From the NCBI RefSeq assembly GCF_016097555.1, contig NC_054702.1:110585014-110649013 (forward strand): DNA of 64,000 nt, given 5' to 3'. The DNA comes from Gigantopelta aegis (lineage: Eukaryota > Mollusca > Gastropoda > Neomphalida > Peltospiridae). The translations under genes and the position numbers were made by a program. Of the stretch, positions 1,769-34,648 are shown one piece after another (the first letter of the stretch is position 1; each line of letters opens with the position of its first letter). The notes below the pieces were generated by a model. The model saw only the letters and a program-made list of their open reading frames with translations. It was not told where the DNA came from and ran no database searches.

Positions 1769-4700
1769 ATTGACTCATTAAGAGTTCCTCTAGTTGGAGC
1801 CGGTATTGGGAGGTGGACCTAAAATACATTAGCCTTAAATCTAGTTATTTAAGCACTGTCTCACTGAGGCTGGTAGTATCTTGAATTAGAATACCAAATT
1901 TGATATTTGTTTCATTACTATTAATATATTAAAGATTGTGTTGTTTTATGAAACTTTCTTCCAAAAAAGAGTTTGCCTAAATATCACTGTTATTTGAAGG
2001 CACAAGCTGACAAACTATTTAGAACTAAAGGCACATGTTCACGCAAATTGTGGCATATCAATAAGTTCCATTGTAAAAATCACTATTTCGCATTAAACCA
2101 AAATTTGTTTCTACAAGTCAAACCCCTTAAAACTGCTGCATTGTTATTTTGTTTCAGACATGTGCTGCTCAGTTCAGGTCCGTGCTTCACGGAGTCTATG
2201 TGGCAGATCAGTGGGAAGGCTCTGCAGAGAGCCCTGGACGCGACCACCTTCAGCCTGCGACAGATCATGATGCTGTTCCACGTCAACTCTGACAACTTCT
2301 ACGGAGATATCGGACAGGTCAAGGTTGCAACACGGAAAGGCTGTACCATCATGGAATGTTTAAGACTTCGTCAGTTGGCTCAGCAGGTAGCAAAAACACC
2401 TTTTAGATATATATAACAGGTGTAAAAGATGACTTATTTGCAATTCACAGGTGTTTCTAACATTTGTAATGTGTTCATTTCTTGATGAATGTATAAATGA
2501 TAATGTGGACATCATCGTATCATGTTATTTTGTACTGGTACTTTATGAGAGTTATTGTTCAAGATCGAAAATAAGAATTCAAAATAAAATGTGATTGAAT
2601 GCAACTATGGTATGCTCAGTGCAATAAATAGTCACGTGTATCCATATATCTCTGGTTGTATATATATGATCATACAACATTGTGTACTCGGAAATCATAT
2701 ATTAATTTTTAAAAACCTAATGAAGAGTGTGTGTAATCATTTTGATATTCATGTTTCTGGCAGGTCTTCTTACTGGAGAGTCAAGTGTCAGCTATGCCTC
2801 AGGTTCAGTTTGACATGGATGAGGGACAGTCATACGTGTTTCTACTCTATCCACAGAATCATAAAGACAGTCTCAACCCAGACCACATAGTAACCAGGTG
2901 GGTTGTTACATTATTATAGAGCACATAGCAACCAGAGAGGTTATTGCTTTAATACAGACCACATAGTAACCAGGTAGGTTATTGTTTAATACAGACCACA
3001 TAGTAACCAGGTGGGTTATTGCTTTAATACAGACCACATAGTAACCAGGTGGGTTATTGCTTTTAAAGCAGACCACATAGTAACCAGGTGGGTTATTGCT
3101 TTTAAAGCAGACCACATAGTAACCAGGTGGGTTATTGCTTTTAAAGCAGACCACATAGTAACCAGGTAGGTTATTGCTTTTAAAGCAGACCACATAGTAA
3201 CCAGGTAGGTTATTGCTTTTAAAGCAGACCACATAGTAACCAGGTGGGTTATTGTTTTAATACAGACCACATAGCGACCAGGTAGGTTATTATTTTAATA
3301 CAGACCACATAGTAACCAGGTAGGTTATTGCTTTTAAAGCAGACCACATAGTAACCAGGTGGTTATTGTTTTTAAAGCAGACCACATAGTAACCAGGTAG
3401 GTTATTGCTTTTAAAGCAGACCACATAGTAACCAGATAGGTTATTGCTTTTAAAGCAGACCACATAGTAACCAGGTGGGTTATTGCTTTTAAAGCAGACC
3501 ACATAGTAACCAGGTGGGTTATTGCTTTTAAAGCAGACTACATAGTAACCAGGTAGGTTATTGCTTTTAAAGCAGACCACATAGTAACCAGGTAGGTTAT
3601 TGCTTTTAAAGCAGACCACATAGTAACCAGGTGGGTTATTGTTTTAATACAGACCACATAGCGACCAGGTAGGTTATTATTTTAATACAGACCACATAGT
3701 AACCAGGTAGGTTATTGCTTTTAAAGCAGACCACATAGTAACCAGGTGGTTATTGTTTTTAAAGCAGACCACATAGTAACCAGGTAGGTTATTGCTTTTA
3801 AAGCAGACCACATAGTAACCAGGTAGGTTATTGCTTTTAAAGCAGACCACATAGTAACCAGGTGGGTTATTGTTTTAATACAAACCACATAGTAACCAGG
3901 TGGGTTATTGTTTTTAAAGCAGACCACATAGTAACCAGGTAGGTTATTGCTTTTAAAGCAGACCACATAGTAACCAGGTGGGTTATTGTTTTAATACAAA
4001 CCACATAGTAACCAGGTGGGTTATTGCTTTTAAAGCAGACCACGTAGTAACCAGGTAGGTTATTGTTTTAATACAGACCACATAGCGACCAGGTAGGTTA
4101 TTATTTTAATACAAACCACATAGTAACCAGGTAGGTTATTGCTTTTAAAGCAGACCACATAGTAACCAGGTAGGTTATTATTTTAATACAAACCACATAG
4201 TAACCAGGTAGGTTATTATTTTAATACAAACCACATAGTAACCAGGTGGGTTATTATTGTAATACAAACCACATAGTAACCAGGTGGGTTATTGCTTTTA
4301 AAGCAGACCACATAGTAACCAGGTAGGTTATTATTTTAATACAACCACATAGTAACCAGGTGGGTTATTATTTTAATACAGACCACATAGTAACCAGGTA
4401 GGTTATTGCTTTAATACAGACCACATAGTAACCAGGTAGGTTATTGCTTTTAAAGCAGACCACATAGTAACCAGGTAGGTTATTATTTTAATACAAACCA
4501 CATAGTAACCAGGTGGGTTATTATTTTAATACAAACCACATAGTAACCAGGTAGGTTATTATTTTAATACAAACCACATAGTAACCAGGTGGGTTATTAT
4601 TTTAATACAAACCACATAGTAACCAGGTAGGTTATTGCTTTAATACAGACCACATAGTAACCAGGTAGGTTATTGCTTTTAAAGCAGACCACATAGTAAC

Positions 4701-7700
4701 CAGGTAGGTTATTGCTTTTAAAGCAGACCACATAGTAACCAGGTAGGTTGTTATTTTAATACAGACCACATAGTAACCAGGTGGGTTATTGCTTTTAAAG
4801 CAGACCACATAGTAACCAGGTGGGTTATTGCTTTTAAAGCAGACCACATAGTAACCAGGTAGGTTACTGCTTTTAAAGCAGACCACATAGTAACTAGGTA
4901 GGTTATTATTTTAATACAGACCACATAGTGACCAGGTAGGTTATTGCTTTAATACAAACCACATAGCGACCAGGTAGGTTATTATTTTAATACAAACCAC
5001 ATAGTAACCAGGTAGGTTATTATTTTAATACAAACCACATAGTAACCAGGTAGGTTATTATTTTAATACAAACCACATAGTAACCAGGTAGGTTATTATT
5101 TTAATACAAACCACATAGTAACCAGGTAGGTTATTGCTTTTAAAGCAGACCACATAGTAACCAGGTAGGTTATTATTTTAATACAAACCACATAGCGACG
5201 AGGTAGGTTATTATTTTAATACAGACCACATAGTAACCAGGTAGGTTATTGCTTTTAAAGCAGACCACATAGCGACCAGGTAGGTTATTCTTTAATACAG
5301 ACCACATAGTAACCAGGTAGGTTATTGCTTTTAAAGCAGACCACATAGACCAGGTATAGCGACCACATAGTAACCAGGTTATTATTTTAATACAGACCAC
5401 ATAGCGACCAGGTAGGTTATTATTTTAATACAGACCACATAGTAACCAGGTAGGTTATTATTTTAATACAGACCACATAGTAACCAGGTAGGTTATTATT
5501 TTAATACAGACCACATAGTAACCAGGTAGGTTATTGCTTTTAAAGCAGACCACATAGTAACCAGGTGGGTTATTGCTTTTAAAGCAGACCACATAGTAAC
5601 CAGGTAGGTTATTGCTTTTAAAGCAGACCACATAGTAATCAGGTAGGTTATTATTTTAATACAGACCACATAGTAACCAGGTGGGTTATTGCTTTTAAAG
5701 CAGACCACATAGTAACCAGGTAGGTTATTGTTTTAATACAGACCACATAGTAACCAGGTAGGTTATTATTTTAATACAAACCACATAGTAACCAGGTAGG
5801 TTATTGCTTTTAAAGCAGACCACATAGTAACCAGGTAGGTTATTATTTTAATACAAACCACATAGTAACCAGGTAGGTTATTATTTTAATACACACCACA
5901 TAGTAACCAGGTAGGTTATTATTTTAATACAGACCACATAGTAACCAGGTAGGTTATTATTTTAATACAGTAACCACATAGACCACATAGACCAGGTAGG
6001 TTATTATTTTAAAGCAGGTACAGACCACATAGTAACCAGGTAGGTTATTGTTTTATTGCTTTTAAAGCAGACCACATAGTAACCAGGTAGGTTATTGCTT
6101 TTAAAGCAGACCACATAGTAACCAGGTAGGTTATTGCTTTTAAAGCAGACCACATAGTAACCAGGTAGGTTATTATTTTAATACAAACCACATAGCGACC
6201 AGGTAGGTTATTATTTTAATACAGACCACATAGTAACCAGGTAGGTTATTGCTTTTAAAGCAGACCCCATAGTAACCAGGAAGGTTATTGTTTTAATACA
6301 GACCACATAGTAACCAGGTAGGTTATTATTTTAATACAGACCACATAGCGACCAGGTAGGTTATTATTTTAATACAGACCACATAGTAACCAGGTAGGTT
6401 ATTGTTTTAATACAGACCACATAGTAACCAGGTAGGTTATTGCTTTTAAAGCAGACCACTTAGTAACCAGGTAGGTTATTATTTTAATACAGACCACACA
6501 GTAACCAGGTGGGTTTTTATTTTAATACAGACCACACAGTAACCAGGTGGGGTATTATTTTTAATACAGACCACACAGTAACCAGGTGGGTTATTATTTT
6601 TAATACAGACCACACAGTAACCAGGTGGGTTATTATTTTAATACAGACCACACAGTAACCAGGTAGGTTATTATTTTAATACAGACCACACAGTAACCAG
6701 GTAGGTTATTATTTTAATACAGACCACACAGTAACCAGGTAGGTTATTATTTTAATACAGACCACATAGTAACCAGGTAGGTTATTGCTTTTAAAGCAGA
6801 CCACATAGTAACCAGGTGGGTTGTAGCCGTAATCCCGATCATATGGGGGGATGGGATTTAACTCAGTTGGTAGAACGATTGCATACAGTGCTTAATCATA
6901 GGATCAAACAACCTTGTAAGTAGGTGTTTGATCAAGATCAACTATTAACCAAGTAGATTATTTCTATGATCCAGACTATACGGACAAGTGATTGCTTCAT
7001 CTTTTCAGTAATAACGGTCACACTTCAAAACAATTCCTTAATCCTTTCATATTTCTTTTGTTCCTACAGTAGGTAATTTACATGCACAAATTTATACATT
7101 TGGAAAATATTTAAAGTAATTCATTTTAGGTTTTAAACTTTATCAGAACTTGTTGTGGGAGTGATTCAATATTCCCTTAACTTAGATCATGGGGAGCAAT
7201 TTACAATATTATTACATTCTTATTCAATCTTACTATAGTGATAAAGACATTAAGACATTTTGTATCATACATATGTGCGATCTTGACTGGAACTTTTAAA
7301 TGGGTCATTTAACACCTTTTATTTACTGACATCATATATGGTTTATAAATTACGTCACATCATATTTGAAACATTACACAAGGCTGCCGCAGAGTATGAT
7401 TCTGAACATTAAGCAAATCCATGAAAGGAGGTTTGATCATAGATTTAACAAAGTGTTGTTATGACATTAAATTAAAAAACGTTTTTGTAAAACATAAAAA
7501 AGGTATGTAATAAATACAGAACTTCACATACGTTGTTTTCGCTTCCTATTTATTACACTTGTTTATTTTGCGAAAGAACATACCACTCGACATTGTAGTC
7601 TCATGGTATATATTCTTGCGCAAAATAAACTCGTGCAATAAATAGGAAGCGAAAACAACATATGTGAAGTTATGTATATTTACCATATTGATACCATATA

Positions 7701-10700
7701 AATTCACATCTTAAGGAGAGCTAACAAGTACTAATAATTACTCTTCTAACAAATCTCAGGGAAGTCATGTGGAACGAAAATGGAAGCTCCTAGTAAACTG
7801 CACTGTCTGTTTTATTACAGTAGCTAGTGGATAACTCTTGTTCTATTGTAGTTGGTATACGACTTCAGTTTGTAGTCAACATATTCTGGATAACTGATAA
7901 TGAGACAGGAAAATGAATTGGAAGAGTTGGATTGTCTTTAAACAATAAAGGAAGTAACAGTTAATTGTTTTTCGTTGTAGGATTCCGTTTCGAAACATCG
8001 TCATAGGTATGCTGTCTCACCAGCTGCTACTTCAGACCGTCGGCAGTCTTTTGTTGGAAACTGCAGAGTCAAAATCAGACCATGATACTGACAAAGAACA
8101 TAAAATGCCTGGTAAAATGTTGTTAACAAATTCTTTTACAGATTACACCTTTTAAAGTGACTATGATTATAGTATTGTGTAAATATTAATTAGACTTTGC
8201 TATAATTTCTGATATTATATGTTAAAATATCCAATTATATATTCATATTAAAGCAGGCTTTTATGTACAGTGATCTAAAAATATTGTTTGATTTTCTTCT
8301 GAAATTTATACATAGGGAAATGTATACACGACCATCATTTTGTACTGTGCACACTATATTAAATGGCATGTAATATTGAACAAACCTAAATAAACAACAG
8401 TTTCACACCACTGTCATTGTCAAAGTCTCGTCTGCTTCAAATATTCATTGCGTAAAGAGTTTTGGTGACTTTACGTGACAAGCATCTCTTAAAAACAATA
8501 GCCCGATTTACAGGAGTAGCTGAAGATGTCAACGTTAGACTATGACATGCATTTAATCTTTTCACAACAGAAAATGACATGGATATTAACATTTGTTGGT
8601 TGATTTTGACAATAAAGTGAACATTATTTCATCAAATCGATCATACATCACAATGCGTGTGTGCAGAAACCATTTCCCATTAATAGGCCAGTTCACGGTT
8701 ACTCGAGGATATACCTTGAGACCATGTTAATGTGCTTGCAATAAATATCAATATGTGGATTGCATTCTTCTATATAAAAAAATACAGTGAAATCTGTCTA
8801 AACCGGACACTGAACAACCGGAATGCTGTCAAAACTGGCCAAGTTTCACTGTTCCGATTTTTCAAAATCGTAAATTGTGACCCTCTAAATACCAGATTCT
8901 GTGTAAATTGGATAAATATTAGGTCCTCAACTGATCCGGTTTAAACGAGTTTCACTGTACATGTTCAAAATATATTTATTAATTGATCTTTCACAGGTTT
9001 ACTGCAGTACATGTCCACAAGCAGTGTGATGCAGCTGATGAACACACTACAAAAAGCCTACAACCTCGCATGTGACTTCGACTCCCGGCCTGGACTCAAG
9101 TTCCTCATCCAGAAGGTGGCCGGTCTGGAGGTCGCAGCCAACCTGTACAAGCTGGCCGGGGCAAGCACAGTGTTATTTGTCCACACGCTGGTGGAAATCT
9201 GTTCACACCTGACCGGTCTGACCCTGGAAAGAACCAGGTCCCTCCTGTCAAACCCACAGACAGACGCCGACAGCATTGACTGGGTCACCAGAGGAAGAAA
9301 CTCGCAGGAGAAGATTTCGTCCAATCAGATTGTGTTTCTGAATTTACTGCAGAGCACATGTATGGAGCTTTGCCAGAAGTACGTCGATATTCTGTTGGAC
9401 AAGGATGATTGTTCCCGATTTGACGCAATTGCGGATCACTCTCTGTTTTTCTTGATAGCACAGTCGGAGGACAGTAGCAAGTCTAGGCATGAGTCTGAGA
9501 ATTCACCCACTGATGTTCAGTCTGAGGGATTTATCACAACTCCAGTCGGCATTCAGAGTCCAGAAGGTTGGTACAGAGAAACCCCTTTAAACCAGACCCT
9601 CTGTAAACTGGAATTCCCTCAAAACTAAAGGATTTTCATGGTCCCTTGTTAAATATCATTACTGAACACAACCTCTCTAACCTGGCTACCCCTTAAAACC
9701 AGACTTTTTACTTGGTCCCATGGGTGTCTGGTTTAGAGGTGTACTAAACCAAATAACTTCCTGCTGGGTCAAAGTTCGAAGTGCACCGAACTTTTGATAG
9801 AGAAGTTGACACCACAAGTCGTGTGATTGGTGATAAATGTGAGTGTGTTGGTTGTAAAAAAAAAAACGTTTCATCTAGTCAAAAAATGTACGCAATTTTA
9901 TTTTCTCTAGTACCACTGTATCAAGCAGCCTTGTGTTTGAAACATGTAAAGGGTACCTGTAAGAAAAAGTACTCAAATTTTGTGCGGAACTAGGGTAGTC
10001 ATAGATGCTACCCGTTCACTCTGAAATGAGTTGCTTGACCCCCAATTTTGTCTGATTCACTTTAAGGGTGAGTGGTGGTAGTATTTATATCTGTGGTGTT
10101 TATATCGATTGATACGCTGCAGGTAGGAGTTTTAGCCACATATGTTACTATTGTCGTCTATGGGATTTGATTTGGTAGTATACACCCTATTGAGGTTTGC
10201 CTGAATTTGGGTTAAAATGTATCATTGGGAAAGTTTGTATCTTGAATATAGGAGATTTAATCAACATTCTTAAAGCAACATGTTTTGTTTTTACAAATAC
10301 CCTTATGTGTAAATTTGTGTTTTTATATTTTCAGCCGATGAAACATCATCGCATGTGTCAGATCCAGTAACAGAGCCGTCGAATCAGGGTGATTCCCCCT
10401 CACCAACCCACACTCGCAGTAAGAGGGAGATGCGGCAGGAGGAGGGGAGCAAGGTTTACACGGTGGCCTCTGACAAGGTCATCCAGAACCTCATGCAGGA
10501 GTACAAACGTCGCAAGCAGCAGAAGTCCATGCCGGCCTTTGTCAGACTGAGCAAGAGGAAAAAAGCTGATTCACTAAAGTCTGCCCAGAAAGAGACAGTT
10601 GATCAAGACATTGACAAGCAGCAGAAGTCTTCCATCTTGAAGGTGAGCTTGATTAAAAAAAAACAGTCGTAAAATCTGCCTGTTTGTATTTAACATTCAG

Positions 10701-11128
10701 ATGTGTTTCACACACATACTGACAATCATATTTTGCCTCCTTAATTAATCGCATTCCCTGTGTTTGAACATATTTCAGTTTAACTTATTTTCATGCTTGA
10801 GTCTAATGAAAGTTGAAGCATGCTGTCATTAGGTAAATAGTTAGTTGTTAGAGGTGTTTAACATCACCAGGAAGTGTTTGTTTTCCAGGACAGTGAAGCC
10901 CATGTGTTGTCCTGGTCTGAGATGCTGAAAACTGTTCTCAACCTGTTCCTGATTCTCGATGACAACCAGTTCCGTGCCCTGCTTCCAGCCGTCTTCAACT
11001 GCGTCAACCAGCTCATCTGCCATGCAGACGACCCCAAGTTGAAGGACATTCTGGGACAGTGGTTCAATCGACTTGGCCAACTCTACGAGTTCTGTCCCAA
11101 GGACACGGTGGCAGCACCAAAGCAGTGA
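743..11128 (+). CDS. ARFGEF3: ARFGEF3 (BIG3) orthologue, C-terminal eight exons
   Basis: Coding segments are 743-913, 1316-1433, 2158-2386, 2764-2897, 7981-8111, 8997-9566, 10335-10642 and 10889-11128 (TGA). All junctions are GT/AG, and the 1,901 coding bases join in one open frame of 632 residues after the split first codon. Family assignment is by recall of vertebrate BIG3: SRLGCSCIRHVLLSSGPCF, CMELC, the basic EYKRRKQQ stretch and the C-terminal QPAVF/LPAVF...QL.CH block all match in order. BIG3 is a large Sec7/HEAT-repeat relative of the BIG1/BIG2 ARF exchange factors. It has been linked to secretory-granule biology and to prohibitin binding in vertebrates. The Sec7 domain would lie upstream of this window, so only the C-terminal helical region is visible. 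The pre-C-terminal linker (SPSPTHTRSKREMRQ) is charged and probably disordered. Confidence 0.92.
1316..1433 (+). CDS. ARFGEF3: ARFGEF3 exon
   Basis: The acceptor is TTTTAATCATAG and the donor is CAG|GTTAGTA. It encodes LSEEHPYLELMLRQSLDVMI and QPVENISRLGCSCI, joining the next exon after two bases of an Arg codon. Conservation with vertebrate BIG3 is strongest at SRLGCSCIR. Confidence 0.88.
1612..1860 (-). mobile_element. Degenerate tRNA-type SINE, antisense
   Basis: TTTTTGTGCTTATACCCAG followed by a GATTATTGAGAGAAAAGTAAG block and GTAGTGACTACACACA matches the layout of the better-preserved minus-strand copy at 35338-35577. The conserved central word is interrupted by a (CA)n run at 1730-1765. 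The tRNA-like head is poorly preserved. Confidence 0.55.
1730..1765. repeat. (CA)n microsatellite
   Basis: About 18 CA units, embedded in the SINE-like sequence of an ARFGEF3 intron. Confidence 0.95.
2158..2386 (+). CDS. ARFGEF3: ARFGEF3 exon
   Basis: The acceptor is TTTTGTTTCAG and the donor is CAGCAG|GTAGCA, exiting in phase 0. It encodes HVLLSSGPCFTESMWQISGK through ECLRLRQLAQQ. The codons are visibly GC-richer than the flanking introns. Confidence 0.9.
2764..2897 (+). CDS. ARFGEF3: ARFGEF3 exon whose 3' end seeds the minisatellite
   Basis: The acceptor is TTTCTGGCAG and the donor is AACCAG|GTGGGT. It encodes VFLLESQVSAMPQVQFDMDE and ends NPDHIVTR. Its last 17 nucleotides (GACCACATAGTAACCAG) and the first intronic bases (GTGGGTT) are the core of the tandem unit that fills the following intron. 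Which donor copy is used cannot be told from sequence alone; the first one keeps the frame directly with the exon at 7981. Confidence 0.88.
2898..6830 (+). repeat. Minisatellite built from an exon-intron junction, ~100 copies of 38-39 bp
   Basis: The array starts at the splice donor of the preceding exon. Each unit contains the exon-derived GACCACATAGTAACCAG, then the donor GTAGGT or GTGGGT, then TATTGCTTTTAAAGCAG or TATTATTTTAATACAG/ACAA, which leads into the next copy. About 3.9 kb at ~38.5 bp gives roughly 100 copies. Three main subtypes are visible: a 39-mer ending TTTTAAAGCAG, a 38-mer ending TTTTAATACAG, and a 38-mer ending TTTTAATACAA. Sub-variants are GCGACC for GTAACC, and a cluster with CACACAGTAACC at about 6485-6740. 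Minus-strand open frames here are repeat artefacts. Confidence 0.97.
3254..3760 (+). repeat. Higher-order repeat, 387-bp period, inside the minisatellite
   Basis: Rare variants recur in the same order 387 bp apart: the GCGACC unit at 3274 and 3661, and the one-base-short unit with ACCAGGTGGTTATTG at 3354 and 3741. This shows a block duplication of ten units within the array. Confidence 0.85.
6846..6975 (+). mobile_element. tRNA-like SINE head fragment
   Basis: The stretch has a box-A-like TTAACTCAGTTGGTAGAACG and a degenerate box-B-like AGGATCAAAC about 35 bases later. It sits just past the end of the minisatellite in the same intron. It is too diverged to be a tRNA gene, with no acceptor-stem pairing evident. 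Confidence 0.5.
7510..7682. mobile_element. Palindromic MITE with ~57-bp arms
   Basis: AACTTCACATACGTTGTTTT and CGCTTCCTATTTATTACACT on the left are mirrored on the right by GCAATAAATAGGAAGCG and CAACATATGTGAAGTT. The loop is ~40 bp. There is no ORF. It lies in the ARFGEF3 minisatellite-bearing intron. Confidence 0.85.
7981..8111 (+). CDS. ARFGEF3: ARFGEF3 exon
   Basis: The acceptor is TTTTTCGTTGTAG and the donor is CCTG|GTAAAA. The first base completes the Arg codon split at 2897. It encodes IPFRNIVIGMLSHQLLLQTV and GSLLLETAESK. The LSHQ.LLQ motif matches vertebrate BIG3. Confidence 0.9.
8783..8959. mobile_element. MITE, family with TACAGTGAAA termini
   Basis: The left end is TACAGTGAAATCTGTCTAAA. 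The right end reads AAACGAGTTTCACTGTA, which is its inverted counterpart. The ~177-bp element is non-coding and flanked by TA-rich DNA. It ends 37 bases before the splice acceptor of the next ARFGEF3 exon. Related copies lie at 9572-9743 and 44171-44332. Confidence 0.8.
8997..9566 (+). CDS. ARFGEF3: ARFGEF3 largest visible exon
   Basis: The acceptor is GATCTTTCACAG and the donor is GAAG|GTTGGT. It encodes GLLQYMSTSSVMQLMNTLQK, DSRPGLKFLIQKVAGLEVAA, NLYKLAGAS, the conserved STCMELCQKYVDILL and a Ser-rich tail to IQSPEG. The PGLK.L..KV.G...AANLY pattern matches vertebrate BIG3 as I recall it. The donor is weak (GTTGGT), because a MITE begins five bases into the intron. Confidence 0.92.
9572..9743. 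mobile_element. MITE, TACAG-type, directly after an ARFGEF3 exon
   Basis: The left end is TACAGAGAAACCCCTTTAAA. The right end, CTGGTTTAGAGGTGTA, is its inverted counterpart. The body contains further CCAGAC/CTGGTT words typical of the family seen at 8783 and 44171. It is non-coding. Confidence 0.7.
9765..10075 (+). repeat. Dispersed repeat, copy 1
   Basis: GGGTCAAAGTTCGAAGTGCA, CTTGTGTTTGAAACATG and TACCTGTAAGAAAAAGTACT have counterparts in the same order at about 21205-21490. I do not recognise the family. Confidence 0.65.
10335..10642 (+). CDS. ARFGEF3: ARFGEF3 exon, basic linker
   Basis: The acceptor is TATATTTTCAG and the donor is TTGAAG|GTGAGC, a strong site in phase 0. It encodes a Ser/Pro/Thr-rich stretch, then EGSKVYTVASDKVIQNLMQE and YKRRKQQKSMPAF. 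This parallels the K.YT.A.DK.I..LM.EYK.RKQQ block of vertebrate BIG3. The Lys/Glu-rich remainder is probably disordered. Confidence 0.9.
10889..11128 (+). CDS. ARFGEF3: ARFGEF3 terminal coding exon
   Basis: The acceptor is TTGTTTTCCAG. It encodes DSEAHVLSWSEMLKTVLNLF, FRALLPAVFNCVNQLICHAD and LGQWFNRLGQLYEF, then CPKDTVAAPKQ and TGA. The C-terminal helical block matches the vertebrate BIG3 C-terminus. Confidence 0.93.
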   Translation, partial: DSEAHVLSWSEMLKTVLNLFLILDDNQFRALLPAVFNCVNQLICHADDPKLKDILGQWFNRLGQLYEFCPKDTVAAPKQ

Positions 11129-12071: not shown

Positions 12072-12303
12072 GCATGAGGTGGGATGTGGTTGTGTGACAG
12101 AACACTTATATCAGGTGGGATGTGGTTGCGTGACAGAACACTTAAATGATGTGGGATGTGGTTGTGTGACAGAACACTTACATCAAGTGGGATGTGGTTG
12201 TGTGACAGAACACTTACATCAGGTGGGATGTGGTTGTGTGACAGAACACTTACATCAGGTGGGATGTGGTTGTGTGACAGAACACTTACATCAGGTAGGA
12301 TGT
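12072..12303 (+). repeat. 36-bp minisatellite, ~6.4 copies
   Basis: The unit begins TCAGGTGGGATGTGGTTGTG and continues TGACAGAACACTTACA. Copies are nearly identical. Because 36 is a multiple of three, it creates a spurious open frame with a 12-residue period. Confidence 0.95.
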
Positions 12304-13599
12304 GTCAGGATTAATTGTTCTCTGTGACAAATTGAGGGTTTTCCTGTTCTAACCAGCTCCATATAAAAACAATGATAAGTGCTGTCCTGTTTGTATGAAA
12401 GTACATTAAACAAAATTCATTTGTGCTGTTTGGTAAGAATAGCCTATGTGGCAGTGGCAGGTAAGTGTCTACATAGGAGACATGGTCATATCAAATTTAG
12501 CAGTTTAATCTGTTCAAGGTGTCATTAAACAAACATTCCTTTCATTAAATAAACATTCCTTTTTAAAAACACAAACGGTTAACCTGTTATTGTATTCAGA
12601 TACAGTTTGTTTCAACTTGTATCAACTTGATCTCATTTTTTAGTATGTACCTAGGAGAAATGGGGCACTTAGGTTACACACCACTAATAATTACCCCATG
12701 CAGTTCAATACAATTTCTATGTCGGTATACATTCTGTGAAAAATAAACCAAATCAAGAGGGTCACGTGACTACTAATTTTAGTGAGTGCTCTCAATAACA
12801 AGTAACATAAAAAATCAGATAGGTCAACAACAAAAAAGTTCATTTAATAGCCCAAATGCCTGTGTTGCTGTTATACAAGTGGCACCATACCACTTGCACA
12901 GTTGTTATCAGTTGGTACTACATATACCAAGTAACTTCAAACCAATGGGTTATTTAAATACTACAGAGGTTAACCTACGTGTAATCATCAAAGATAGCTT
13001 TCAAAAAGCATATTAGAATTTTGTAGTATGTTTTTTATGAGTAACTATTTCCAAAGCCAGACTATATTAAGCTGCTACAACAAGTAACGACACGACAAGT
13101 GGTGGCGTGTTGTCTTAAACAACATAGATAATAAGAGTTTCACATATTCTAATTTCTTCAAATCTTTTAATAAAAACCTTATGTATGGCTGTTATGCTCT
13201 CATTATATCTGTGTTGGTGTTAAGATAACGATAACCTTTACATTCCTTGGATATTGTTGATTTGACAGTAATTTAAAAATACAATTCCATTACAAAGTCT
13301 TTAAGGTAGAAGTGGAAACAAATCAATGTTTCATGATTGGGCTTAGAAATACCCTTTGATTTTCTGCAGTAAAAATTGATTGTCTTTTTATACATGGAAG
13401 TACATGATTCCTGTGGTACTATTAAGAGCTGGTGTGTGAGAAATGCTATAGATCTGATATTTGTCTTTTAGTGTTGTCAAATGTTTATATAACTATTGTT
13501 GGTTTATAGCTGTTTTATTGTTTGTTCTTTGTGGTTGATACAGAGTGCTCACATAGGATGGGTGGGCACCATCTGGCTTTATTAATCTCCTGTTGGTCC

Positions 13600-13977: not shown

Positions 13978-15407
13978 TACTAGGCGGCAATAAAAACGCA
14001 ATCTCGGAAATGATCATGGTTTATTTTATTATGCGAGATCCCACAAAAATGAAACTGATACCACCAGTGAGACCAACCACTGGCCCATCTGACTGGCACT
14101 GTCAGCCGCCAACAGTGAATGCACGCCTGCAGCCTCCTAGGCATGGACATGCACAGGCGCCTCACCACACGTCGTGGGATGGCTGCCCAGTGATGCTGCA
14201 ATGCCTGCTGCAGCTCAGCGAAGTTCTGTGGTGGATTCGGTTGGTTTTGAACACGACGTCCCATCTCGTCCCACATGTGCTCTATTGGGTTCATGTCCGG
14301 GGAAACTGCTGGCCAGTCCAACACAGTGACATGGTGGGCACGAAGAAACGCCTGTGTACGCCTGGCAGTGTGCGGCCGAGCGTTGTCTTGCTGGAAGACG
14401 AGCCTGTTTCCGCCATGCCGTCTCATCAATGGGAGGAGGACCGGCCGCAGGATGTTGTCGACGTAGTGTTGCGCATTAAGGTTTCCCTGTACCACCACGA
14501 GTTCGGACAGGAAGTCAGCATTGATGGCGCCCCAAACCATGACTCCGCCGCCCCCGTAGCGGTCCCTCTCCAGAACACAGGCCTGCGCAACACGTTCTCC
14601 ACGACAGCGGTAAATGCAACGACGTCTGTCCGTGACACTCACGTTAAATCTCGATTCATCCGAGAAGATGACATCTCGCCATCTCCTGGGTCGCAAATGC
14701 CCATCATTCCTGGCCCATAAGAGTCTTGCTTGACGATGTCTGTGCAGGAGGATAAGGCCACAGTAGGGTCGGTGGCAATGCAGTCGTGCTGCAGCAAGAC
14801 GTCTCCGGACAGTTCGGGCGCTGATGAATCGTCCCCTGGTTCCCACTTCAGTCCTGGCAGTGCTTGCGGCTGTCAAAAACCGATTGCGCAGGTGCCGCAA
14901 CCGTATGTTCCGGTCCTGTCTATTGGTCGTTACGCGTGGTGTGCCCGAACGACGGCGGTCATTGACGGTCCCTGTCGTCTGATATCGGTTGAGGAGCCGA
15001 TTAATGGTTGACGGGTGCACGTGGAACCGTTGTGCTACCCGCAATTGCGAGTTTCCGGCATTCAACAAGCCAATGGCTTGATTCCGATCGGTGTTGTTCA
15101 ACCGAGGCATCGTGTAGGAGTGAGATACTCATTGCCACCTGCGTGTTCTGAGTGTGCCCGGGTATCAGGAAATGCACGTGCAAAGTGTTATTTCGCCAAG
15201 TGGTTGCGTGTGCGCGATTTACCGGATAATGCGTTTTTAGCGTTGTTCCCCTTATGTTGGGAACAGGCCGGAAGTCGACCTTTACATGCTGCTGAAATAA
15301 TGTGTACCACTGTACCATGTACATTGACGAATAGCGTCAACGAAGTCCAACCGAAACGTATATTATTTTGACAAAAGGAAATTGCGTTATTAATGCCGGC
15401 TAGTATA
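13978..15407 (-). mobile_element. Tc1-like (DD34E) DNA transposon, apparently complete
   Basis: The left end reads TACTAGGCGGCAATAAAAAC and the right end, inverted, TACTAGCCGGCATTAATAAC. The ~28-bp TIRs have about four mismatches and are flanked by TA, the standard Tc1/mariner target. The element is 1.43 kb with one open transposase frame on the minus strand. It lies antisense in the 3' flank of ARFGEF3. An uninterrupted frame suggests a young insertion. Confidence 0.88.
13980..15110 (-). CDS. Tc1-like transposase, 376 aa, uninterrupted
   Basis: This is a cut-and-paste DDE transposase that excises and reinserts its element at TA dinucleotides. Residues ~1-60 form a paired-type HTH (QAIGLLNAGNSQLRVAQRFH, PSTINRLLNRYQTTG), followed by a GRPR-like SGTPRVTT. 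The catalytic triad is D151 (IFSDESRF), D242 (FQQDNARPHTA) and E277 (SPDMNPIEHMWDEM). There are exactly 34 residues between the second D and the E, so it is DD34E. The glycine-rich YGGGGVMVWGA is present. The usual C-terminus (SMPRRLQACI) is followed by ~50 extra residues reading into the left TIR, where the stop lies. The start ATG at 15110 gives MPRLNNTDRN, the usual family start. The coding strand is much GC-richer than the surroundings. Confidence 0.93.
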   Translation of the reverse strand: MPRLNNTDRNQAIGLLNAGNSQLRVAQRFHVHPSTINRLLNRYQTTGTVNDRRRSGTPRVTTNRQDRNIRLRHLRNRFLTAASTARTEVGTRGRFISARTVRRRLAAARLHCHRPYCGLILLHRHRQARLLWARNDGHLRPRRWRDVIFSDESRFNVSVTDRRRCIYRCRGERVAQACVLERDRYGGGGVMVWGAINADFLSELVVVQGNLNAQHYVDNILRPVLLPLMRRHGGNRLVFQQDNARPHTARRTQAFLRAHHVTVLDWPAVSPDMNPIEHMWDEMGRRVQNQPNPPQNFAELQQALQHHWAAIPRRVVRRLCMSMPRRLQACIHCWRLTVPVRWASGWSHWWYQFHFCGISHNKINHDHFRDCVFIAA

Positions 15408-22188: not shown

Positions 22189-23100
22189 CTAGACTCCTTC
22201 TCCGTGGTTAAAACCTTGTCCGTACGTGTTGTACATCTTCTCTGGTTTGATCTCGCCTATGAGATGGACATTCGCCTTCCAGAACTCGTGATATTGGGAA
22301 AGCTTGCCGGCGTCTATGAGTTTGTCGATGTCTGCCTCTCTGATAGAGACCTCCATCTCGTCGGACGGGTCGTACTCCCACAGACGAAGCACCGGCCGCT
22401 CTTCGTGCAGGTGGCAGACCAGCAGGGACATCCGCACCTTGTCGGGGTCGGCCAAGCCGTTCTGGATGACCATTATCTTCGCCATGCACAGTTCGGCTAT
22501 GTCCAGTGGTCTCGGCGTCTCCTGCCCCGTAACTTTTATGTTGAGGAGGTGCATGTGGCTATCACGGCGACACAGTACGTCTATCTGCCCCGTGAGGAGA
22601 CGCACGAAGTGAGAAACCTTCACGTGAGCCGTGAGGTTCACTGCAAGAGCATCAAAGGACTCGAACCACGTTTCTATTTTCCTGTCGAAGAGTTTACACA
22701 AGTGTCCACAGAACGTGGAGTCGATGTCGTAATCGTCCTGAGACTTGAGTGTCCTGAACATGTCCACCGCTCCCTTCCTGCGCATCAGCTTGAGGACGGC
22801 GGTGTGGAACTGTCGTCCCTGCTCCTCGCGCGGCGTGTTGTACAGGAAGTGCTGGTACTTCTCCCGCGTCTTCTCGTGTCTGTTCAGGTCCAGACGACAG
22901 GCTTCTCGTCTGGTCAGAAAGAACTCCCACTTGTTCTTCCTCTCAGGGTTAAACGTGCTGTAAACTAAAGTTTCACCTAGTGTTTCTACAGCAATGAATA
23001 TCTTCATAGTGGCTAAATCGTAGTTTCTAGAAAGCTTTTCTAGCCTCCGTTTCAGTTCATCCTCATAATGCATCAAGCCGCGAGCAGACGCCAGTGCCAT
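22189..23100 (-). CDS. Single-exon 303-aa protein, possible PD-(D/E)XK nuclease fold
   Basis: I do not recognise this gene by name. The start ATG at 23098-23100 has a good context (ACAACAATGG on the coding strand), the stop is TAG and there is no intron. GC-rich coding against AT-rich flanks supports a real gene. What suggests a fold is TGQIDVLCRR followed after a short hairpin by LLNIKVTG. This resembles the GxxD ... (D/E)xK core of RecB/MGME1-type exonucleases, with D174 and K189. A helix with QGRQFHTAVLKL (H99) precedes it, and an amphipathic helix AELCMAKIMVIQNGL follows. In the usual (D/E)xK position the residue is N187, so catalysis may be altered or lost. There is no signal peptide or membrane segment. 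A role in nucleic-acid processing is an inference only. Confidence 0.75.
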   Translation of the reverse strand: MALASARGLMHYEDELKRRLEKLSRNYDLATMKIFIAVETLGETLVYSTFNPERKNKWEFFLTRREACRLDLNRHEKTREKYQHFLYNTPREEQGRQFHTAVLKLMRRKGAVDMFRTLKSQDDYDIDSTFCGHLCKLFDRKIETWFESFDALAVNLTAHVKVSHFVRLLTGQIDVLCRRDSHMHLLNIKVTGQETPRPLDIAELCMAKIMVIQNGLADPDKVRMSLLVCHLHEERPVLRLWEYDPSDEMEVSIREADIDKLIDAGKLSQYHEFWKANVHLIGEIKPEKMYNTYGQGFNHGEGV

Positions 23101-24080
23101 TGTTGTGCTCTGAATCTGACTAAACTGTTAAAGATTGCAAAATTGCTTAGTCTCTTAACACAAGTTTTATCAATTATTCCAACTTTAGAGATATATTATC
23201 AGTCAGCAAGTGTCCGGTTCACGGTAAACATTATTTTCATACTCGCATACTCCAATTTGTTAAAAATTTATGTTATCTTATCTTGTTTGTCTCCGTGAAT
23301 AATGTTAATTGAGTTAATCCGTCAGTCCATTTAATTTTCAGCTAAATAATTATTGAACAGTCACAACACTCAATACACACAGGTCTCTATTAAAGTGATG
23401 TCATCATTACACATGAATCCCAGCTTCAGATTTGTTTCATCCGACGATTTTCGATTAACCGTTTGGTAATAACAATACTTACAGCTTTAATAACAGAATA
23501 TGAAATAACAAACAGTTCCTTTGACATCTATATGCAACCAACCGGTTTCAGGCTAACCTCCTCTTTGCTCTTGTAAAAAACGTACATAAAAAGTCATCGT
23601 TAAACAAGAATACTGTGCATCCAGTGTACTTCCATATTTCCAATACCGTACCGCTATAACAGTAGATACGTGTTCTTAATGCTCTGTGGCCAGTAATCGA
23701 ACACTATAGAGCTGCTTGAACAAGTCGCAACAAGACACACAAATACGAACAAACTGAACTACTCGCATACAGCTGGTCTGAATAAATCATCCAGTAGCTC
23801 AATACAAATCTACAAATCAACTAGAAAATTTTAAAATTTTAAAGTTCTCCTTTCACTCTGATGTCCGCTGGTTATTCCTAGTCTGTCGATGGTGGTGCCA
23901 CCAGATACGCAAACACGTTTTGTTCACGTATTTGCGAACAGGGTCAGGTAAACTAATAATTTGCCCAATATTCAATAGCTGGTTGTCAGGTACGCCGAAT
24001 CGCCAACACTCTCACAATACTGTGATATACAACAGGTCTATAGATCGCTTTCTCAACGGGAGAGCGACATTATCATTTTA
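23101..24080. other. Upstream flank of the 303-aa gene
   Basis: This should contain the promoter and 5' UTR of the minus-strand gene ending at 23100. No clear TATA box, CpG block or upstream coding exon can be singled out. Confidence 0.35.
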
Positions 24081-31294: not shown

Positions 31295-31530
31295 CGTCGC
31301 TCCAGCCAGTGCACCACCACTGGTACATCAAAGGCCATGGTATGTGCTATCCTGTCTTTGGGATGGTGCATATAAAAGATCCCTTGCTGCTAATCGAAAA
31401 GAGTAGCCCACGAAGTGGCGACAGCGAGTTTGCTCCCTCAATATCTGTGTGGTCCGTAACCATATGTCTGACACAATATAACCGTAAATAAAATGTGTTG
31501 AGTGCGTCGTTAAATAAAACATTTCCTTCC
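31295..31530 (+). mobile_element. 5'-truncated SINE with imperfect TSD
   Basis: It starts inside the SINE core (CGCTCCAGCCAGTGCACCAC) and ends with the CGTCGTTAAATAAAACATTT tail. TCACACACCCG before it and TCACATACCCG after it form an 11-bp target duplication with one mismatch. Confidence 0.85.
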
Positions 31531-33779: not shown

Positions 33780-33998
33780 ACACACTGTTTTTTTTAGATA
33801 GAAAATCCCAACAAAGTCTAGTAATTAGGCCACGCCCCTTTTTATGTTAGTGGGAGGAAGTAGTTAGGACGTAACAGCCTTCCGTGTGTTCATATCATGG
33901 CGACTCTTTGAAGTCCAAAAGTCTGCAGGTAAATTATGGATCGGATGTAAAACTGAAAATGTAGCTGCACACAAGTGTTTTTCTTCTTCTCAAGAGCC
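33780..33998 (+). promoter_or_regulatory. 5' flank/5' UTR of the NHS-like gene
   Basis: A CCACGCCCC box lies at about 33830, followed by TTTTTATGTTAG and CTTCCGTGTGTTCATATCATGG. No open frame continues upstream in frame with a better ATG. Promoter status is inferred from position only. Confidence 0.35.
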
Positions 33999-34281
33999 AT
34001 GCCTCTTCCCGTTCGAATCGTGGAGCCCATTATTTTGGGCCGTAAGGCGGACGAAATCGAAGAAAGTGAGGATATTGTGGCGGCCCAGATAGCGGTAACT
34101 CAGCACACCGTGTTGGGCGCGTTGGTTCAACTGGCGACTCTCGTGCGACATGCAGACGACCTTTTCTGTGATCTTACCGACGAGTGTCAGAAGATTTTCG
34201 ACAGGACCGAGCTCATCACCCACAAAATCAACATTTGCACTGATATAATACGTCAGCTGGATTCGAAGAAAGTTAAAATAC
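33999..34281 (+). CDS. NHS: NHS-family protein, first coding exon (WAVE-homology domain)
   Basis: ATG at 33999 gives MPLPVRIVEP; the exon runs 94 codons plus one base to a strong donor (C|GTAAGT at 34282). The WAVE-homology domain binds the Abi/HSPC300 part of the WAVE complex. NHS proteins use it to influence actin at cell edges and junctions. As I recall them, NHS starts MPFAKRIVEP and WASF starts MPLVKRNI(D/E)P. LVRHADDLF here resembles NHS LARHA..LF, and the end QLDSKK matches the ALDPKQ/QLDPKE position of both. The middle (GRKADEIEESEDIVAAQIAV) is more divergent than expected for WASF, so NHS-like is preferred. An exon ending at this point fits the known NHS gene structure with a very long first intron. 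No later exon is visible in the window. Confidence 0.7.
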
Positions 34282-34648
34282 GTAAGTTTTTAAAACTTTA
34301 TAATAATTAATTTTGCACTTGCAGAAAGCAAAAGGTGTTTTTAATGTTATTAAAAATTTAAATTGACATTCAAAATTATAGAGGCTATGGATCTGAATCA
34401 AAATCCATTTGTGGTAATGTACCCTTTACACAGTATTTGTAATACGATTATTACACAATGCATAATTTAATTTGATTTAATAATAAAAAAAATATTCTAA
34501 AACAACTAAAAGTTACATTCACAAGTGCCAGGAATTGAATATTCAGATATAGTAGAGTTCAAAACTTATTAATTTAAATATTTACACTTGTTTGGTCAAA
34601 AATCACTTCCTGGTAGTGGTCACTGTTCCTACTGTCATCACTAGAATA

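Follow-up and report, generated by a model that had tools for sequence, protein, structure and literature searches.

We found that an intron of an ARFGEF3-type gene in the gastropod Gigantopelta aegis is largely occupied by 103 tandem units that copy the gene's own exon-intron boundary. The window, a stretch of 64,000 nucleotides (NCBI RefSeq assembly GCF_016097555.1, contig NC_054702.1, positions 110,585,014 to 110,649,013 of the forward strand), was analysed at its full length, and coordinates refer to it unless stated otherwise. The array is probably a mirage-type minisatellite that grew from the real ARFGEF3 junction and has been tolerated since the first donor is the one used. Amphioxus ‘mirages’ are minisatellites lying over exon-intron boundaries, described in Adh3 and the globin genes BflGb6 and BflGb9, and also in TnC and PGBD5 (PMC3902484). 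Judged from its letters, the ARFGEF3 array would class as such a minisatellite, with boundary-spanning units, retained AG/GT and a homogenised interior.

Tandem Repeats Finder (TRF) placed the array at 2879–6822 on the plus strand, with a period of 38, 101.7 copies and 88% matches, and segmentation by wrap-around alignment divided it into 103 units, the final one partial, with 93 units measuring 38 or 39 bases. The array takes up 3.9 kb of a 5.1-kb intron. Its left edge, at 2879, lies within the exon at 2764–2897, and the first unit (2879–2918) comprises 19 exon bases (CA plus 17) and 21 intron bases. The initial annotation, made by a model from the sequence alone, had placed about 100 copies at 2881–6830 and taken the last 17 exon bases as their core; the copy number agrees with ours, the limits moved by a few bases, and the 17 bases are repeated within a shared exon stretch of 19 nt. 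The exon-derived 17-mer GACCACATAGTAACCAG has 59 exact copies, all within the array and none elsewhere in the window or on its minus strand, in keeping with the annotation's description of donors in their native exonic context. Likewise, CAGGTRGGT occurs 93 times in the array (67 GTAGGT, 26 GTGGGT) and nowhere else in the window on either strand. The annotation gave every unit a donor, which is nearly so: 93 of 103 carry an exact CAG|GTRGGT and 100 keep AG|GT, the motif being lost in units 2, 15 and 89, with unit 2 diverged and lacking GT at the donor. Two main unit forms differ in their endings, ..TTTTAATACA and ..TTTTAAAGCA. An artefact of assembly or a wrong copy number is very improbable: long arrays are frequently mis-assembled, but 44 distinct unit sequences and the irregular units 65, 66, 82 and 83 argue against simple stutter. 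As a side observation, the RNA of seven units (3032–3303) folded better than its shuffles (z -4.1), perhaps via self-complementary GCTTTTAAAGC pieces; searches of the window for RNA families and tRNAs returned no match.

The host gene is, by its predicted protein, of the ARFGEF3 type (BIG3), as initially annotated. Eight exons delimited by hand (743–913, 1316–1433, 2158–2386, 2764–2897, 7981–8111, 8997–9566, 10335–10642 and 10889–11128) joined into a single open frame with a terminal stop, and the gene presumably extends past the window's left end. Among the window proteins, the Pfam family BIG2_C matched above its cut-off (1.2e-9); alignment to human ARFGEF3, the one family member compared, gave 37% identity over 337 columns spanning the array-bearing junction. 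A search of the PDB gave a weak match to a SEC7 domain-containing protein (E 0.024). The plus-strand exon whose 3' end seeded the array (2764–2897) reads VFLLESQVSAMPQVQFDMDEGQSYVFLLYPQNHKDSLNPDHIVT(R), the joined frame being open and the alignment crossing its junction. Its native donor, CAG|GTGGGTTG at 2897–2898 (plus strand), is the first and innermost of the donors. The next exon (7981–8111, plus strand) has the acceptor TTGTAG|GATTCCG and reads IPFRNIVIGMLSHQLLLQ.., and the remainder of the intron after the array (6823–7980, plus strand) includes an inverted repeat. That repeat (7504–7687) has 79-nt arms, 86% complementary and 26 nt apart, and resembles a miniature inverted-repeat transposable element; a remnant of a tRNA-derived short interspersed nuclear element (SINE) is possible near 6840–6960, judged by eye only.

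An origin of the array from this junction, which the initial annotation also proposed, is well supported by the sequence. The intron part of unit 1 reads as a diverged full unit, with 6 edits in 21 bases, a closeness equalled at 0.05% of 18,967 random places. Both end units (2/2) share GTGGGTTGT, which the last, partial unit (6799–6830, plus strand) carries like unit 1 before giving way to unique intron sequence, and this favours growth from the junction. Only three units have GGTTGT: the two at the ends (1 and 103) and, among the 101 in the interior, unit 49. The contrast that the annotation drew between the end copies and most interior copies thus holds. The 100 interior units numbered 3–102 lie a median of 0 edits from the nearest of nine common forms, 53 of them at 0, and units 1, 2 and 103 lie 5, 4 and 6 edits away (unit 103 scored with its flank). 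We propose that the exon end (its last 17–19 bases) and the intron start (the first ~20 bases) would have been tandemly duplicated, and that the duplicated junction then expanded to ~103 copies, perhaps through unequal exchange or slippage.

The direction of growth was considered against the rest of the genome. In 1,149,253,464 bases on 5,216 contigs, a 95-base unit pair gave 45 matches, all within the array; the search omits very common words, and its result is strong but non-absolute evidence against a dispersed satellite. With unit-pair matches at one locus only, a dispersed satellite or transposon lacks support as the source. No match to CCACATAGTAACCAGGTRGGTT was found in viral and prokaryote contigs, which are non-animal collections. 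For ARFGEF3 itself, a direction from exon to array is suggested by the restriction to one locus and by what the two end units have in common. The opposite order, in which the first unit of a pre-existing intron satellite was captured as the exon end, seems most unlikely to us: DHIVTR does belong to a linker of low conservation, where the alignment to the human protein has a 3-residue gap, but the unit pair has no match elsewhere in the genome, and three myosin exons described below carry their repeated exon end inside a Pfam family match.

Tolerance of the array would follow from how its donors are placed. Under exon definition, a short exon is recognised as a unit through the acceptor and donor closest to each other. 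Duplication of an exon end would keep the original as the innermost donor, with each copy downstream and able only to define a longer exon; duplication of an acceptor would be the mirror case, with the original acceptor innermost. Exon definition would pick the original acceptor-donor pair, and the copies on the intron side would be removed with the intron. As the sole donor that defines the short real exon with that exon's acceptor, the first donor is presumably the one used, and the array would be tolerated in consequence. We predict that each of the 92 exact donors downstream, if used, would bring a stop 7 codons past the exon, which means that use of the first donor must predominate in a working gene.

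The donors themselves are strong. An approximate donor matrix gave 11.6 for the native donor and 11.1 and 11.6 for the two exact forms of unit donor; the gene's six remaining donors scored 3.3 to 11.6, one of these tying with the native site. In computed pairing with U1, exact unit donors reach -11.7 to -12.1 kcal/mol and the gene's six remaining donors -5.3 to -9.9. Such pairing, and the stop predicted for all 92 exact interior donors, would suit a regulatory decoy, with interior donors used or bound by U1 enough to cut ARFGEF3 output through stop-containing mRNAs or to delay splicing, and copy number tuning the effect. We nevertheless consider a decoy improbable. Rare variants, meaning those present in at most two units, were counted in 93 of the 103 units, with the irregular units and units 1 and 2 dropped; two units with one-base deletions were excluded from the first 27 columns yet included in the cell totals. 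The donor 9-mer held 5 rare variants in 837 cells versus 10 in 2604 for the rest of the unit (p 0.38), and the exon-derived part 8 in 1581 versus 7 in 1860 for the intron-derived part (p 0.61). Rare variants in these 93 units give no sign of selection on donors, which leaves both the decoy and the annotation's suggested competition for U1 without the expected shortage of changes in donor letters, and published mirages reportedly leave splicing undisturbed.

A second set of possibilities concerns acceptors. Many units had been likened to micro-exons with both splice sites, and acceptor-like ends are indeed abundant (43 exact TTTTAAAGCAG and 30 exact TTTTAATACAG), with AG at 80 of 102 unit starts. 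Pyrimidine content before unit-start AGs averages 0.53, near the 0.51 of CAGs elsewhere in the window and at the bottom of the range spanned by the eight native acceptors (0.53–0.76), so the resemblance is weak. A single 16-nt micro-exon is also predicted to shift the frame and reach a stop 40 codons on, and two to reach one after 8. Recursive or dual-specific splicing, with each unit's AG|GT acting as both acceptor and donor so that stepwise intron removal always restores the same junction, would draw on the 100 of 103 units that keep AG|GT and on human UBC, whose tandem AGGT arrays are spliced in this way (PMC10809524). Against it, pyrimidine content before the 93 CAG|GT sites is 0.41, under the 0.50 of the window's average AG, and the usual unit has a nearer AG (CAG or ATAG) upstream. 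We rate this reading somewhat below even the decoy.

The array could also serve as a U1 platform that blocks premature polyadenylation within its intron, a role close to one that the initial annotation had raised. The 93 strong U1 sites do lie upstream of the intron's last 1.16 kb, in which AATAAA occurs 4 times and ATTAAA 2 times. AATAAA, ATTAAA, AGTAAA and TATAAA are absent from the array, with nine in the rest of the intron, and the role is unsupported: an AT-rich intron can be expected to contain poly(A)-like hexamers, their count here comes from the array's intron alone, and selection on donors was not seen. We give the platform hardly any credence. Neutral debris is the best-fitting of the options that the annotation listed, and on balance nothing clearly indicates a maintained function for the array.

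Several observations pull against an array that grew from the junction and was simply tolerated. At least 4 edits separate four of the 100 interior units from the common forms, and three of these four lie further away than the end units do. Internal duplication of blocks is unproven, since the longest repeated block of unit types (6) was equalled by the best of 300 shuffles. When shared variants are included, 51 of 1581 exon-derived cells are variant versus 117 of 1860 intron-derived ones; the gap comes mostly from three two-state columns by which the main unit forms differ, but the lower variability of the exon part would also be expected under constraint on it. Finally, use of the first donor in ARFGEF3 is something that we infer from the sequence.

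Minisatellites bearing splice sites have been described before. The human IFI6 gene (6-16, G1P3) contains one with a 12-bp unit that makes an in-frame insertion, and it reportedly supplies multiple splice donor sites, as Turri is said to have described in 1995. The ARFGEF3 array is likewise a minisatellite whose repeat units carry splice donors. In IFI6, two downstream repeat units are used as donors (PMC4526556), whereas downstream ARFGEF3 donors are predicted to add stops. Human UBC polyubiquitin has tandem dual-specific AG|GT sites (PMC10809524), and the ARFGEF3 units share with it an AG|GT at a fixed place; UBC units are coding and vary in number in the mRNA, whereas ours are intronic and bear stops. 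In the Rogers model, introns are gained through tandem duplication of AGGT segments (PMC3087553); the ARFGEF3 case resembles it in that tandem duplication copied a splice motif, but here an existing intron grew and no new intron was seen. Closest are the amphioxus mirages, in which splicing is reportedly regular, boundary units are excluded from homogenisation and both 5' and 3' junctions are affected. As in those, the ARFGEF3 units span an exon-intron boundary beside the real one, many with AG/GT, and the interior is homogenised with the boundary units set apart. Reported mirages have few units, with 6 and 3 in BflGb6 and 3 of 108 bp in PGBD5, whereas the ARFGEF3 array has 103, in a 1.15-Gb genome where several motor-protein exons are affected too. 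Branchiostoma genomes, at ~0.5 Gb, are about half as large. Mollusc-type hemocyanin domains were detected in the present genome on the small unplaced contigs C2783 and C5121 only, where they may be contaminants. The view in the initial annotation that such an arrangement was unknown from any described gene was mistaken, given human IFI6 and the amphioxus mirages (PMC4526556, PMC3902484). The novelty of the single array is low, its kind being already described; we found no arrays of this kind in a mollusc in the literature searched, of which coverage was partial.

Other junctions of this genome carry comparable arrays. Three CAGGTRRGT spaced 10–40 bases apart matched 2599 times in the genome versus 1537 times for the reversed pattern, a hint only, as matches within one array are non-independent. 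Among the matches listed, all in C1, this pattern gave three arrays. One (L039) lies at an exon; by eye, another (L040) lacks an exon at its edges and the third (L041) looks SINE-derived. The gene reached through L039 encodes an EGF domain and a TNFR-like part under its Pfam cut-off. One of its exons (G000:C1:1173739-1177246; L039, L043) is flanked on both sides, with ~21–22 units of 46 bp upstream that repeat the acceptor and 28 units of 85 bp (99%) downstream that repeat the donor. In combination, ~21 acceptors and 28 donors would allow hundreds of exons, and the innermost alone would be sensible. Elsewhere in the same stretch, other exons have arrays of ~23 donor copies of 56 bp (11 with CAGGTRGG) and of 13 acceptor copies of 40 bp, and a 62-bp array adjoins a fifth acceptor. 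We delimited these C1 exons by eye, guided by open frames and splice signals; those array-bearing exons that were searched against Pfam had no match above chance. Having been found through its array, this gene is uninformative on frequency.

To estimate frequency, we took 39 exons sequence-unseen: 19 matching Myosin_head, in 14 stretches hand-picked from 80 matches (2 of the 19 matches containing a stop), and 20 matching Kinesin, the first stop-free ones among 124 matches. The sampled stretches held 25 merged TRF arrays (period at least 15), covering 12.2% of 61,062 bases. Donor-spanning arrays were present at 4 of the 39 exons and acceptor-spanning arrays at none, the two acceptor arrays known to us both being in the C1 gene. 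Three are at myosin exons, ending ..FGMDLQACIDLIER (80 bp x 8–9), ..QQILEANPIME (85 bp x 11 or more) and ..EASHYHYLVQ (~22 bp, degenerate, about 10 copies), and one at a kinesin exon ending ..KLKAMLMGQIPLPTDGFS (58 bp x 4 or more); the loci are L048, L055, L046 and L059. For the three myosins (..DLQACIDLIER, ..QQILEANPIME, ..EASHYHYLVQ), the exon end that is repeated falls within the Pfam Myosin_head match; it is thus family coding sequence and not satellite, which gives the direction as exon to array. The repeated end of the kinesin exon lies beyond the Pfam match. Outside this count, a further donor (L058) is spanned by a two-copy 98-bp duplication, and at L048 an array of 23 units of 43 bp ends 5 bases before an exon match.

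Whether such arrays exceed what array density alone would give is less clear, and the figures here weigh against our preferred reading. With uniform edges, 1.21 arrays were expected at donors and as many at acceptors, versus 4 seen at donors (P 0.035), three of the array-bearing exon ends having been set by hand; with all exon ends as family-matched, 3 of 39 span a donor (P 0.12). A wider zone with ends as matched gave 4 of 39, the fourth being a different one (the two-copy L058 case), with 1.53 expected (P 0.07). The presence of donor-spanning arrays is established; their excess over array density is not. We see about an even chance that splice junctions are amplified genome-wide in this species, with roughly a tenth of donors self-arrayed (4 of 39 sampled), acceptors affected more rarely and some exons on both sides, splicing always taking the innermost pair and introns growing by multiplying their own ends.

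Other features of the window were recorded. Among ten repeat units tested as donor arrays, a 36-bp unit at 12073 holds a good donor, CAGGTGGGA; its 6.4 copies span 12073–12304, and 0.5% of random stretches were as good. The repeat lies ~0.9 kb past the ARFGEF3 stop, and this location led us to reject it as a junction array. An uninterrupted Tc1-like transposase frame of 382 aa lies at 13980–15128 on the minus strand (Pfam DDE_3, 5.6e-16). A 312-aa open frame at 22189–23127, also on the minus strand and in a locally GC-richer stretch, had no Pfam match and a chance-level PHROG match, 303 aa from the first Met having been searched. The motif GATCCCTTGCTGCTAA occurs in six copies with 0–2 mismatches (0.02 expected), at 31378, 36163, 52668, 54337, 55457 and 60816; these are possibly parts of SINEs, and the motif may resemble molluscan SINEs. 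The open frame at 33957–34310 (plus strand), MPLPVRIVEPIILGR.., had zero Pfam matches; it may resemble the N-terminus of NHS/NHSL1, and human NHSL1 lies beside ARFGEF3.

Junction amplification has so far been treated as a lancelet feature in the literature searched, and the surprise here is the scale of an array, in a mollusc, of a known but little-studied kind. The same process at other junctions of the genome makes the ARFGEF3 array one case of a wider genome habit and not an organ of ARFGEF3; the genome-wide side appears new and has been sampled in small numbers only. An intron with dozens of near-identical donors in native exonic context is a natural experiment in how the spliceosome selects one of many equal sites, and rank order, exon definition and competition for U1 could be read from ordinary RNA-seq of such an intron. 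If the pattern is genome-wide outside amphioxus, junction amplification would be one way for introns to grow, and a reservoir from which new exons and introns could arise.

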